Shown in pieces: positions 1 to 26,021 of a stretch of DNA of 40,823 bases. The notes beneath the pieces were generated by a model. The model was not told where the DNA came from. It saw only the letters and a program-made list of their open reading frames with translations, and made no database searches. The DNA is from Halothiobacillaceae bacterium. GTDB lineage: Bacteria; Pseudomonadota; Gammaproteobacteria; Halothiobacillales; Halothiobacillaceae. Made by a program: the position numbers and the translations under genes. The stretch is taken from NCBI GenBank assembly GCA_016938615.1, contig JAFGUH010000155.1, positions 1 through 40,823 of the forward strand, read 5' to 3'. Numbering within the stretch: the first letter of the stretch is position 1; each line of letters starts with the position of its first letter.

Positions 1-208
1 CGGCGCGCGGTGAATGGCCGTCGCCATTCGCAAGCGCCGCAACGCCGCAGATGGGCCCTTGGCGGCCCGCCCGGACGGGGCTCGCGGGTTTGCCCGCACT
101 CGGCGTTCCCGGCCCTCGACGGGCAATGAGCCCGCCTTCGGTCCGGCGCCTTGATTGCGAACAAACCCGCAAGCCAGAGGCACCATCGATTCGTGCAGAG
201 GTTCCCTA
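1..208 (+). mobile_element. MITE-like element, copy 1 (left end outside window)
   Basis: This is the right-hand part of a short non-autonomous element that occurs three times in the window. The right terminal repeat ends at a TA dinucleotide at 207-208; read inward on the minus strand it is TA, GGGAACCT, then CTGCACGAATCGATGGTG. The body matches copies 2 and 3 throughout. It has a small hairpin (GAATGGC at 12-18 pairing with GCCATTC at 23-29) and a GCGGGTTTGCCCGC-type hairpin near 88-101. No transposase is encoded. The element ends about 50 bp before the start codon of the downstream cyclase/phosphodiesterase gene, so it probably lies in that gene's leader or promoter. The left terminus is beyond base 1. 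Confidence 0.75.
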
Positions 209-260
209 GCCTTCGCCGGCCTCACGGATTGCGACCGACCACGGACCCAGGACGACCCGC

Positions 261-11157: not shown

Positions 11158-11461
11158 TAGGGAGATTCTGCACGAATCGATAGTGTCTGAAGCGGGATTG
11201 CCAAGTGTCTCAAGCGGGATTACCAAGGGTCCGGATGCAAGGCGCGGTGCATGGTGAATGGCCGTCGCCATTGGCACACGCGGCAACGCCGCAGGCGGGC
11301 CATTGGTGCCCCCGTGCGGGGCTCGCGGGTTTGCCCGCAGGCCGTAAAGCCGCCTCTCGACGGGCCTAAGTTATTGCCTTGGGCCTGCCTTCGAGCCGGC
11401 GCCGGAAAAGCGAACAAGCCCGCGAGCCAGAGGCACCATCGATTCGTGCAGAGTCTCTCTA
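11158..11461 (+). mobile_element. MITE-like element, copy 2 (complete)
   Basis: A complete 304-bp copy (counting both flanking TAs). TA at 11158-11159 is followed by GGGAGATT and CTGCACGAATCGATAGTG. The right end, read on the minus strand, is TA (11460-11461), GAGAGACT, CTGCACGAATCGATGGTG. The 18-bp inner part of the inverted repeats differs at one base. The interior aligns with copies 1 and 3. It encodes no transposase, so mobilisation would be in trans. TA at both borders resembles target duplication by IS630/Tc1-mariner-type enzymes (inference). It lies in the leader of the small PA3496-like gene, whose start codon is 12 bp past the right border. Confidence 0.85.
11183..11226. repeat. 22-bp tandem duplication inside element copy 2
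   Basis: Two adjacent 22-bp units (11183-11204 and 11205-11226) differ at two positions. Each starts GTGTCT and contains AAGCGGGATT. Copy 3 has only one such unit, which accounts for most of the length difference between copies 2 and 3. Confidence 0.85.
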
Positions 11462-11473
11462 GGGGAGACCGAC

Positions 11474-22486: not shown

Positions 22487-24806
22487 GGTGGCCTGCGCCT
22501 CATCGGCCGATGAGGCGTGTCCGACTGCTGGAACGCGCAATGACGCCGCCGACCACGTCGACGCCGGTGCCGGTCGTGTGAACCGCCTCGCCGACGACCT
22601 TGCCGCGCTCGAGGGCCAAGGCCGGGCACTGCTCAGCATCGAGGGGCTTTGGTGCCCCAGTTGCGCCGCCGCCACGGAGCGGCTGTTGCGTGACACCCCC
22701 GGGGTTCACGACGCCCGAGTGAGTTTCATCGGCTCGGCCGCCCTGCTCCGCTGGGACCCCGACCGCACGACGCTTGCTGCACTGGCCGCAGCCGTGCGGC
22801 GGCTGGGGTATCGCCTCGCCCCGCCCGACAACCGACGCACCACCGCCGAACGGCTCGACGGCGAAATCCGGGCACTGAGCGTCCGCCTGACGGTCGCCGC
22901 GTTCTTCGGCGTCTGGACCATGCTGTTTTCGCTGCTGATCTACCTCGGCGTCGGCGAACACTCCGGCGGTGCGGTCGGTTGGTGGCTCGCCTTGGCGAGC
23001 GTCTCGTTCGCGCTGCCCGCCATCCTGTTCGCGGGCCGGCCGATTCTCGTCGCCGGCTGGCGCACGCTGCGTACCGGCGTGCCCGGCATGGACACGCTGG
23101 TGGGGCTCGGGGTGCTCGCCGCCGCTGGATTGTCGACCTGGCAGCTCGTGCGGGGCGTGGAGCACGTCTACGCCGACACGGCGGTGATGCTCGTCGTCCT
23201 GCTGACGGTCGGTCGACTGCTCGAGGCCCGCGCATTGCGACGTGCCGCCGCGACGATCGATGCCCTGCACGCGCGCCTGCCGGAGGTCGCGACACGCCTC
23301 GACGCCGACGGTGCGACCGAGACCGTCGCCGCCGAATCCGTGCGCATCGGCGAGCGCATTCGCGTTGCCGCGGGCGAGCGCGTACCCCTCGACGGCAGGC
23401 TCTCCCGGGGCGAGACACGCATCGATCGCGCGGTAATGACCGGTGAATCCCGACCCGCCGCGGCCCGCGTCGGCGATACCGTGCTCGCCGGCAGCGTGAA
23501 CCTCGAGAGAGGCATTGTCATCGAGGTCACGGCCGTCATTGGGGAGCGGGAGATCGATCGGATCGGCGAGCAGGTCATGGAAACCGTGCGCGCCCGCCCC
23601 GGCACGCAGCGACTGGCCGACCGCGTCGCGCGCTGGATCGCCCCGATCGCCATCGGCCTCGCCGCGTTGACGGTCCTGATCGGCCAGCTCGCGGGCCTAC
23701 CCATCGAGGACACCTTGCTGCGCGCCACCTCCGTGCTGGTCGTGGCCTGCCCCTGCGCAGTCAGCATCGCCGTACCGATCGCCTATGTCAGCCTCGCCGG
23801 CCGCGCCGCCGATCAGGGGGTGCTGTTTCGAGACGCCGGCACGCTGGAACGACTGGCCGGCGTCGATCGGCTCTATCTCGACAAGACCGGCACCCTGACG
23901 GCCGGCCACCCGGCGGTCAGCGAGGTGCACATCCACCGGCCACTGCCGGCCGCGATCCCCGACGACCCAGCCACCCTGCTGCATCTGGCCGCCGCGGCCG
24001 AGGGCGACGTGGCACATGTGGTCGCCCAGGCGCTACGCGAGGCCGCGGACTCCACCGTGACCCCGCTCGATGCCCGGCGCGAGGATGCCGGCGTTGTCGC
24101 CGAACACCCCGAACACGGCCAGCTACTCGTCGGTTCGACGCGCTTTCTCGAACGCTACGGCGTCTTGGCTCGCGGCAACCAGTCTGGCGATGCGATGCAG
24201 GTGGAACTCGCCATCGGCGACCGGCACGTCGCCACCTTTATGCTCGACGATCCGTTGCGCCCCTCGGCCGTGGCGACCGTGAACGCGCTCGGTGCCGCCG
24301 GCATCGACTGCGCGATCCTCAGCGGCGACCGGGAATCGTCCGCCATTCGGGTCGCCCGCGCGGTCGGCATCCCCACGGACCGGGTGATCGCCGACTGCCT
24401 GCCGGAGGACAAGGCCGATGTGCTGCGAGCGAGTCGGGGCCGAACCGCGTTTGTCGGTGACGGGGCCAATGACGCGCTGGCGCTCGCCGTGGCGGACGTG
24501 GGCATTGCCGTGTCGAACGCCAACCGCACCGCGGCCATGGCGGCCGGTGTGGTCCTGCGCGAGGAAGGCATCGACGGCGTCCGGCGCGCCGTCGAGATCG
24601 CCCGCCATGGGCGCTACGCAATGCGCCAGAACGTCGCCTTCGCCCTGGTCTACAACGCTTTTGGACTCAGCCTGGCGGCGATCGGGATGATCCCGCCGGT
24701 ACTGGCGGCCGCCGCGATGGCGGCAAGCTCGGTCACCGTCATCCTGAACGCCGCCCGTCATGGCCGCGGCCCCACCCCCGACAGGGCGCAGCAGGCGCGG
24801 GCGTAG
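22470..24806 (+). CDS. ccoI: Copper-transporting P1B ATPase, CcoI/CopA2 type
   Basis: About 778 residues; inner-membrane copper pump expected to supply CuB during cbb3 assembly. Features in order: N-terminal metal-binding domain with WCPSC (Cys62, Cys65), GMDTLVGLG, the actuator motif MTGES (about 323-327), the membrane copper site CPC (427-429), the phosphorylation site DKTGT (471-475) and GDGANDALAL. The nucleotide-binding SEHP-like motif is degenerate (DVAHVV near 516), keeping the His but not the Pro. The start overlaps the tsdA end by 17 bp; TTG 22467 and GTG 22488 are alternatives. It ends the operon. No ccoG or ccoH is present, and the CcoS function may be fused to CcoN. Confidence 0.88.
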   Translation: MTTGDKVACASSADEACPTAGTRNDAADHVDAGAGRVNRLADDLAALEGQGRALLSIEGLWCPSCAAATERLLRDTPGVHDARVSFIGSAALLRWDPDRTTLAALAAAVRRLGYRLAPPDNRRTTAERLDGEIRALSVRLTVAAFFGVWTMLFSLLIYLGVGEHSGGAVGWWLALASVSFALPAILFAGRPILVAGWRTLRTGVPGMDTLVGLGVLAAAGLSTWQLVRGVEHVYADTAVMLVVLLTVGRLLEARALRRAAATIDALHARLPEVATRLDADGATETVAAESVRIGERIRVAAGERVPLDGRLSRGETRIDRAVMTGESRPAAARVGDTVLAGSVNLERGIVIEVTAVIGEREIDRIGEQVMETVRARPGTQRLADRVARWIAPIAIGLAALTVLIGQLAGLPIEDTLLRATSVLVVACPCAVSIAVPIAYVSLAGRAADQGVLFRDAGTLERLAGVDRLYLDKTGTLTAGHPAVSEVHIHRPLPAAIPDDPATLLHLAAAAEGDVAHVVAQALREAADSTVTPLDARREDAGVVAEHPEHGQLLVGSTRFLERYGVLARGNQSGDAMQVELAIGDRHVATFMLDDPLRPSAVATVNALGAAGIDCAILSGDRESSAIRVARAVGIPTDRVIADCLPEDKADVLRASRGRTAFVGDGANDALALAVADVGIAVSNANRTAAMAAGVVLREEGIDGVRRAVEIARHGRYAMRQNVAFALVYNAFGLSLAAIGMIPPVLAAAAMAASSVTVILNAARHGRGPTPDRAQQARA

Positions 24807-24932
24807 ACCCGGAGCCCAATCGGCATGGCCACCGTCTCCCTGCCTCTCGACGGGCACAACGATCGTGGCGAAGCCCGCCGCTCCTGGTCTATCTTCCCCC
24901 GACCTGCCCGCGACCCTTGGGGAAAACCACCC

Positions 24933-26021
24933 ATGTTCCTAGCAAACCGCTGCACGAAACGATGGTGTCCCTGGCTCGCGGGTTTGTTCGCTTTGCTGGC
25001 GCCGCCTCCAAGACGGGCCCAACGCAATAACGCAGACCCGTCGAGAGACGGCTTTGCGGCGTGCGGGCAAGCCCGCGAACCCCGTCCGGGCGGGCCGCCA
25101 AGGGCCCACCTGTGGCGTTGCAGCGTGTGCGAATGGCGACGGGGCCATTCACCGCGCTCCGCGCCTTGCATCTGGCCCCTTGGCCGTCCCGCTTCAGGCG
25201 CGATCGATTCGTGCAGAGGTCCCCTATCCGCTACGGACGCCCGCCGATCACCCGGCCGACTCTCCCTGCCACGCCTTCTGGCGCTGGCAATGGTCATCGC
25301 CGTGATCTCCCCGGCCGAGCCTGCACGGGCCGAGCTTGCACGGGCGCTCGACCGGGAAACGACCGACTCGTTCGACTGGGATGCCGCCTGGGAACAAGCC
25401 GAGGAGCGGGCGCGCGAGGAACAGCGATTGCTCGAAAAGGCCCGTCAGGTCAACGAGGGCGAGCTCGAGTTTCTGGGCTCGGAACCCGACCCGGACGGTG
25501 CTCGGATGCACAAGCGCCTCAGGCTCGATCGCGAGAGTCTCGAGACGGGCTGGGCCGAGATGCACCAATGCCACGACAATCTCGACCCCGCCCCGGCGGT
25601 GCAAATCGTCTTCAATCCGGAACGTACCCGCAATATCCGCATCACGTCGCGCGAGGGTGTCGGCATGGCAAAGGTCGACGGCCCGAGCGTGCAGATGCGC
25701 GAAATCGAGCGAGGTGCGCGCCTGTGCGTGAACGCCCGAGTACTCGCCATCGAGCCCCATCCGACCGCCGCCGGCTACCAGGTGGAAAACGGGCCGTTCA
25801 TGCGGCGATTCCTCGACGGTTACTACCCGATGCACGTCCGCCTGGCGCTCGATTGGCCAGCGGGCCTGCTCGCATTCGCCGACAGTACGCCCCCCGCCCA
25901 ACCGGGCCTGAGCATCGAAACTCGCCCGGACGGCCTGCGCCTCGACGCCCACTTCGAGGGACGACTGGTTTCCAGATTGCATCTGCTGCCCGGGCCTGCC
26001 CTAAACGGGGGCGAGGAGTGA
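24933..26021 (+). CDS. Exported protein of unknown function, start region split by in-frame element
   Basis: I recognise no family. From ATG 24933 (GGGGA about 10 bases upstream) the frame is open for 362 residues, but 95 codons belong to element copy 3, inserted after Met-Phe-Leu. Deleting the element with one TA gives a 267-residue protein whose first 38 residues look like a Sec signal peptide: basic ARRSPGRLSLPR, hydrophobic LLALAMVIAVIS, then AEPARA before the cleavage point. The mature part starts acidic and helical (DWDAAWEQAEERAREEQRLLEKA), then looks beta-rich, with two Cys. With the insertion the signal sequence is buried about 98 residues in. Translation could instead begin at ATG 25290, giving 243 residues but a poor signal. 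No ATG, GTG or TTG lies between the element and 25290. Confidence 0.6.
   Translation: MFLANRCTKRWCPWLAGLFALLAPPPRRAQRNNADPSRDGFAACGQAREPRPGGPPRAHLWRCSVCEWRRGHSPRSAPCIWPLGRPASGAIDSCRGPLSATDARRSPGRLSLPRLLALAMVIAVISPAEPARAELARALDRETTDSFDWDAAWEQAEERAREEQRLLEKARQVNEGELEFLGSEPDPDGARMHKRLRLDRESLETGWAEMHQCHDNLDPAPAVQIVFNPERTRNIRITSREGVGMAKVDGPSVQMREIERGARLCVNARVLAIEPHPTAAGYQVENGPFMRRFLDGYYPMHVRLALDWPAGLLAFADSTPPAQPGLSIETRPDGLRLDAHFEGRLVSRLHLLPGPALNGGEE
24940..25226 (-). mobile_element. MITE-like element, copy 3 (complete, inverted, within a gene)
   Basis: A complete 287-bp copy in opposite orientation to copies 1 and 2. TA at 24940-24941 is followed by GCAAACCG and CTGCACGAAACGATGGTG. The other end, read on the minus strand, is TA (25225-25226), GGGGACCT, CTGCACGAATCGATCGCG. 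One TA plus the element is 285 bp, exactly 95 codons. No stop codon occurs in the host gene's frame, so the element reads through. It carries a single copy of the 22-bp unit duplicated in copy 2. Confidence 0.85.

Follow-up and report, generated by a model that had tools for sequence, protein, structure and literature searches.

The locus and its features

The window analysed here, a stretch of 40,823 nucleotides, is a contig (C32) of a draft genome from the Halothiobacillaceae (2.4 Mb in 267 contigs, 94.7% complete with 2.9% contamination). The host probably belongs to Guyparkeria, whose members are halophilic sulfur oxidisers. It contains a gene for an exported-type protein that carries a repetitive element directly behind its start codon. 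The features are:

24933..26021, forward strand: host gene as now read, 362 codons from ATG 24933, exported-type protein conserved in the genus
24886..24896, forward strand: promoter-like conserved motif GGTCTATCTTC, 47 nt before ATG 24933
24933..24935, forward strand: ancestral start codon ATG, its spacing from the conserved motif agreeing with that of the orthologue starts
24939..24942, forward strand: left copy of the probable 4-bp target duplication (CTAG)
24943..25223, forward strand: element copy of 281 bp; its multi-copy family is MITE-like, bounded by terminal inverted repeats and with two palindromic arms inside
24943..24968, forward strand: left terminal inverted repeat, with three private substitutions
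24975..25001, forward strand: hydrophobic segment LAGLFALLA encoded by the element behind basic residues; by eye it resembles a signal or anchor
25141..25144, forward strand: GGGG in place of the GG usual in the family; the 2 additional bp make the insert 285 (a multiple of three) and not 283
25198..25223, reverse strand: right terminal inverted repeat
25224..25227, forward strand: right copy of the probable target duplication (CTAT)
25228..25331, forward strand: host signal peptide with hydrophobic core LLALAMVIAVISPA and presumed cleavage at ARA|E
11158..11465, reverse strand: second family copy in the window, intergenic
1..209, reverse strand: third family copy in the window, cut by the contig end

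The frame opened by ATG 24933 ends with its stop at 26021. The host protein has no match in Pfam or NCBIfam at E 0.01, and the element taken together with the host ORF has none in Pfam. We take ARA|E to be the cleavage site according to the (-3,-1) rule. The core of the host signal has a hydropathy of 2.2 over 15 residues, compared with 1.26 for the best 15 residues of the element-encoded segment, and is intact behind the element. An earlier note on this DNA had spoken of an insertion that buries a secretion signal, which is right at the DNA level, the insert preceding an intact host signal.

An insertion absent from orthologous loci

The net insert consists of the 281-bp element and one 4-bp duplication. 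Just 3' of ATG 24933, it adds 285 bp or 95 codons in the host frame without a stop, and the coordinates, length and frame described in the earlier note were confirmed. The repeat units lie 285 nt apart, whether counted from TA to TA or from CTAG (24939–24942) to CTAT (25224–25227). The reported single extra duplication copy and the net 285 nt therefore stand, but the unit is more likely 4 bp than the TA first proposed, judging from family members elsewhere: 32 of 119 near-full matches, counted on both strands, have identical 4-bp ends and 87 do not, and among the 32 there are 20 with non-palindromic ends (seven CTTG, three TTTA, and others). Under a 4-bp duplication the net length is still 285 nt and the original residue 4 could be Ala or Ser.

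The protein encoded from 25290 onward served as query against 57 genomes, and orthologues with 55–77% identity were found in nine of the ten other genomes of the genus, the tenth (G004) being 64% complete. An HMM of the element matched the window locus and, with E values as high as 10 admitted, none of the nine loci of the orthologues. Downstream, an rlmKL-like neighbour is found at all nine; upstream, a P-type ATPase is seen at two, the loci extending only 1.5 kb. Each orthologue begins, by eye, with a signal-peptide-like segment. Their start codons were likewise chosen by eye, and the junction region is too diverged among them for a base-by-base alignment.

A motif resembling GGTCTATTTTC with at most two mismatches lies 42–67 nt 5' of the start in all eight genes measured, the window gene and seven orthologues, compared with 104 of 4000 stretches of 90 nt drawn at random. 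G008 and G009, the orthologues furthest removed and additional to these eight genes, have matches with three mismatches only, which appear weaker by eye. At one mismatch the motif at 24886 is the sole match in the window, with 0.2 expected, and it may act as a promoter. As the register between motif and start is common to the orthologues measured, ATG 24933 is ancestral and the element a later arrival. This comparison places the insertion in the lineage of the source genome, after ATG 24933 had become the start of the gene. Removal of the 285 nt gives MFLSATDARRSPGRLSLPRLLALAMVIAVISPAEPARA|E, which by the same comparison is the right reconstruction of the ancestral gene. The claim that excision restores a gene with a signal peptide is thus borne out by element-free loci in nine orthologues. 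It also survived the test proposed with it, namely that the upstream region of such orthologues must agree: seven of the nine were measured, and in all of these the motif is about equally far from the start.

A MITE-like repeat family in Guyparkeria

The inserted element is far from unique. In the source genome BLAST detects at least 49 pieces of the family, with 40 of 160 candidates scored. Allowing up to two mismatches, the terminal repeat CTSTGCACGAATCGATRG has 53 sites per strand, 106 in total, and a reversed-pattern control has none. These repeats are found as paired ends of the copies, as is typical of MITEs; the family is also short, multi-copy and without a transposase, and has the target duplications that 32 of the 119 matches display, with one insertion, in a HAD hydrolase gene, lacking a clean one. 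It is present in ten of eleven genomes of the genus, the source included, and in 14 of the 40 genomes searched overall; with the inner stretch of the element as query it was detected in 12 of 27.

For a survey of individual copies, 41 regions of the source genome (G000) and 76 of six relatives were fetched. They cover only copies similar to the window query, and this way of fetching may miss older copies in genes. The element HMM gave 162 matches in the seven genomes, 119 of them near full length and 102 distinct after matches on both strands were merged. A typical insert measures 270 bp in the relatives and 282–283 bp in the source genome.

The element is predicted to fold into a stem of the terminal repeats that closes two long hairpin arms (-160 kcal/mol, z -5.9). 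An alignment of 35 rows chosen from 92 (A1) has 89 predicted pairs, of which 21 are changed on both sides; the rows are related and fall into subfamilies, so these changes are not independent events. Such two-sided changes can be seen in the inner arms, beyond the terminal repeats, at column pairs 189/221, 198/211, 70/110 and 161/248. Read from the alignment, the pattern suggests that the folded form of the element itself is maintained. An Rfam scan of 24700–25500 returned one sub-threshold miRNA match (20.2 bits vs 95).

The autonomous partner of a MITE is often lost. DDE_Tnp_4 was found in none of 14 genomes, DDE_Tnp_1 in seven of 26 with none in the source genome, and element ends with up to six substitutions at none of ten transposase loci fetched from relatives.

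Several other observations concern the copies themselves. The second copy in the window has a tandem duplication of a subterminal stretch of about 23 bp (11182–11231, TGTCTGAAGCGGGATTGCCAAG / TGTCTCAAGCGGGATTACCAAG). Contigs C45, C78, C100, C212 and C254, as well as the window at 1–209, begin within about 25 nt of a truncated copy or inside one, so the repeat probably broke the assembly at these points. For pairs of copies from different genomes such as L060/L120, L061/L102, L068/L106, L069/L109 and L088/L099 both flanks match; many insertions therefore appear to be shared among species and would predate them. The literature searched on Guyparkeria or Halothiobacillus inverted-repeat transposable elements held no description of the family, and a term search of the Guyparkeria pangenome paper (PMC9032823) found no mention of transposons, insertion sequences, MITEs or mobile elements. 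A search on signal peptides with in-frame transposable elements gave nothing relevant among the matches listed.

Copies within and beside genes

Four of the 102 distinct near-full copies were found inserted in genes, each adding a multiple of three. Two leave the reading frame open, in the window gene and in a HAD hydrolase gene, and two close it with a stop, in an Hsp20-like and a UbiA-like gene. The HAD copy (contig C151 of the source genome, L045/L160 961–1234) is 270 bp long and read in frame from the opposite strand of the element, between the motifs GKPS and GDD of a TIGR01458-family hydrolase. The element-free site is seen in G003, where 3 nt stand in place of 273, a net difference of +270 without a clean duplication. 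C151 and G003 are 97% identical left of the element and 86–90% identical for 9 kb beyond it. The contig may be a recombinant, or may not belong in this genome bin, which weakens the HAD case. Both closed copies are inserts of 270 bp: the Hsp20-like gene of G003 (L075 1498–1771, C1) meets a stop about 14 nt into the element, the UbiA-like prenyltransferase gene of G010 (L059 1495–1768, C1) about 177 nt into it. Pfam matches span both junctions, the left Hsp20 half having an E of 0.094, below the cut-off. Since the two open copies read opposite strands of the element, they share no peptide.

This screen relied on ORF spans and codon scores, and its two-sided test misses insertions near gene ends, including the type to which the window copy belongs. 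Among the flagged loci, L025, L054, L073, L076, L115 and L157 were set aside by eye, as were L027, L028, L032, L053, L081, L088, L092, L096, L101, L105 and L114. The latter group is open on one side only, several members with a start codon in the right flank, and L032, L092, L105 and L114 are ambiguous.

Other copies adjoin genes. At the 3' end of a long ORF, a copy gives the stop TAA from its terminal TTAA (L020 1496–1498), and another likewise provides a stop near the end of a gene (L076). In G010, G006 and G001 a copy sits at the same place in front of a conserved gene (L054, L073 and L096, about 1495–1772), where it separates the upstream region from the GTG start that it directly adjoins; in G003 and G005 the gene has the same GTG start without the element. 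A ribosome-binding site carried along in the element ends, with AGAGG some 8 nt from the tip, was considered and rejected: coding ORFs start at 13 of 204 ends, and five offset controls gave 11, 21, 24, 29 and 21.

Where translation may begin

Another in-frame ATG is present at 24825. It lies 5' of the conserved motif (24886), which makes it improbable as a start, and we disfavour it. Its Shine-Dalgarno-like energy (-5.8) nearly equals that of ATG 24933 (-5.5), so this measure cannot choose between the two, and the latter value is moderate in that 5% of random sites reach -7.4. The element itself contains the in-frame alternative starts TTG 24984, TTG 24993 and GTG 25125. From the element end to ATG 25290 there is no in-frame ATG, GTG or TTG, only the CTG codons 25266, 25278 and 25284. 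The earlier view that this interval holds no usable start is accurate in that respect, but had passed over the TTG and GTG codons within the element and the upstream ATG 24825.

These codons permit a reading in which translation starts at a non-ATG codon in or behind the element (GTG 25125, TTG 24984 or CTG 25266) and the element becomes a 5' leader. CTG 25266 is placed as expected for a short signal peptide and would yield the nearly perfect LPRLLALAMVIAVISPAEPARA. The duplex of TTG 24984 with the anti-Shine-Dalgarno sequence has a moderate energy of -5.4, near that of ATG 24933, and the copies directly before the GTG of another gene in three genomes indicate that the family can serve as a leader. 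However, the ancestral ATG and its upstream region are intact, the Shine-Dalgarno-like pairing of CTG 25266 is weak (-1.7 compared to a random median of -3.0), and coding-ORF starts are not enriched at element ends, their 13 among 204 lying within the 11 to 29 of the controls. We thus regard an internal start as quite unlikely, and the gene is read here from ATG 24933.

An open frame without signs of selection

Is an insert without a stop in 95 codons remarkable? When the element was shuffled with preservation of dinucleotides, 97 of 400 sequences were open in the host frame, and among the other 101 copies the length is divisible by three in 53, of which 39 are also open in the window frame. 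Openness averages 15.5% over six frames. As shuffles and other copies are equally open, the open frame is not special, and its length was rejected as a sign of selection.

The insert owes its length to the extra GG, which is found in two of the 29 source-genome copies examined (the window copy and L031) and not in the other 27. It is also absent from the other 34 rows of A1, which excludes L031, and from the sister copy L017 (91% identical). With the consensus of the 29 copies the insert would be 283, a multiple of three plus one. Either the two bases arose after the insertion and restored the frame, or they came with the source copy; with this 2-bp difference the gene could have been frameshifted for a time.

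Substitutions private to the window copy number 19, or about 6.5%, and one of these falls in the target duplication; this degree of divergence suggests that the copy is not brand new. The ancestral state is clear for 16 of them, 4 synonymous and 12 nonsynonymous, where 28%, 68% and 4% stops are expected under neutrality, and the probability that 19 random changes create no stop is 0.44. The changes look unconstrained, and selection on the element peptide is unsupported.

The earlier note had likened the element to Rickettsia palindromic elements (RPEs), that is, to a system adapted for in-frame insertion into genes with a peptide that is a selected, translated module. Some features point this way: the commonest insert outside the source genome is 270 bp (33 of 68 copies, though 269 is commoner in G010 and G005), one frame is open in 59 of 102 copies, a second in-frame copy with an empty site in G003 (net +270 bp) lies in the HAD gene, and all four gene insertions are multiples of three. 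On the other hand, just 4 of 102 copies were found in genes and half of these carry stops, the two open ones use opposite strands, the private changes match those of unconstrained sequence, and multiples of three make up only 14 of 34 copies in the source genome. As a system, the likeness is weak, and we consider such an adaptation very improbable.

Selection on the host gene and the fate of its product

Between the host gene and its G001 orthologue dN is 0.158 and dS 0.981. With G005 as third taxon, the branch values are about 0.093/0.64 (dN/dS ~0.145) for the source genome and about 0.065/0.34 (~0.19) for G001. Parsimony counts of nonsynonymous to synonymous changes with different outgroups are 16.5:35.5, 9:30 and 4:24 for the former and 9.3:23.7, 8:20 and 12:22 for the latter. 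The gene looks to be under purifying selection, as an average over a branch that includes the time before and after the insertion and with dS near saturation. Neither the dN/dS ratios nor the parsimony counts, which vary with the outgroup, give a clear sign of relaxation.

These values bear on the possibility that the insertion abolished the function of the product or sent it to the wrong place, leaving an early pseudogene. A long structured insert before the hydrophobic core should disturb export, and two other in-gene insertions of the family carry a stop. Against this, the 243 codons downstream of the element are open, without a stop or frameshift, and show no clear relaxation; the element divergence of about 6.5%, if assumed to be neutral and entirely later than the insertion, probably would be accompanied by downstream damage. 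A loss of function thus appears unlikely.

The explanation that we prefer starts from a non-autonomous MITE-like Guyparkeria repeat that inserted after the start codon of an exported-protein gene with a frame open by chance, and this much is very probable. The repeat landed in a conserved gene, a few nucleotides past the start codon, where its length of 285 (one target copy included, and with the GG that most of the family lacks) and its composition leave the frame open. Translation would still begin at ATG 24933 and run through the element. The resulting preprotein would have an element-derived basic-hydrophobic start (LAGLFALLA), followed at about residues 100–133 by the old signal peptide, which would still direct export. 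Cleavage at ARA|E would then discard the 95 extra residues with the signal and leave the mature protein unchanged. Perhaps the insertion is tolerated because the element precedes the cleavage site and would be discarded in this way. Read-through with subsequent removal of the extra residues is plausible, with doubt slightly outweighing belief; the whole chain from insertion through chance-open frame and read-through to removal we hold to be evenly balanced.

Further points count against the chain. The very stable RNA fold of the element lies directly behind the start codon; for an assumed transcript start at 24898, the start region is slightly less accessible with the element (0.44 unpaired) than without (0.51). 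Moreover, a signal peptide behind about 100 extra residues need not function, and the weaker hydrophobic segment of the element could alter the topology. A broader idea, which we offer tentatively and with more doubt than confidence, is that the n-regions of signal peptides are a safe harbour for mobile elements, in which the 95 residues are translated and then discarded, or that the element start CTKRWCPWLAGLFALLA took over as signal or anchor and relocated the protein. That ribosomes hop from one in-frame CTA codon of the target duplication to the other is an unnecessary assumption, and to our knowledge such a hop over the element would far exceed known hops in length.

Relation to known mobile elements

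ERIC and Correia elements are short bacterial MITEs with terminal inverted repeats. Together with the Coxiella elements QMITE1/2 they resemble the Guyparkeria element (PMC10969869, PMC5896051) in being short, without a transposase gene, and equipped with terminal inverted repeats and short direct repeats. They likewise occur in tens of copies, mostly intergenic, which occasionally supply a stop or produce an in-frame fusion. For QMITE1/2, end-of-gene stops as well as in-frame inserts are described (PMC5896051). Unlike these, the Guyparkeria element folds as a three-way junction and is typically 270–285 bp long, and no autonomous partner was found for it in the two transposase families searched; it is provisionally regarded as a sequence family of its own.

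RPEs are also palindromic and can sit stop-free and in frame in genes. According to PMC10969869, they are about 150 bp long, encode a conserved peptide, and lie within genes in nearly half of the cases; in-frame fusions by intragenic MITEs are not unusual, and RPEs form them unusually often. The Guyparkeria family, with four gene insertions among 102 copies, two of them open, shows neither the large in-gene share nor a conserved peptide, and membership was rejected on the counts of gene insertions. Intragenic MITE fusions are thus already known as a type of event, and it is the family itself that is without a description in the literature searched.

The Guyparkeria element also shares a YTAR-like 4-bp duplication with the IS5 group. 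IS5-group insertion sequences target a YTAR-like 4-bp site. The Guyparkeria element differs in that the source genome has no DDE_Tnp_1 or DDE_Tnp_4 match and none of the ten transposase loci of the relatives has element ends.

Implications

The insertion itself is real, and nothing observed so far points to a role for the added stretch of 95 residues. The locus presents a natural experiment in halophilic sulfur bacteria: one gene with and without a 95-codon insert before its export signal. The family offers both outcomes, open in the window gene and the HAD hydrolase and closed in the Hsp20-like and UbiA-like genes, so that in-frame reading can be compared with chance. Continued export of the product would mean that coding sequence ahead of a cleavage site can absorb mobile DNA at little cost; without export, the gene would illustrate how a MITE can silence an exported protein or move it elsewhere.
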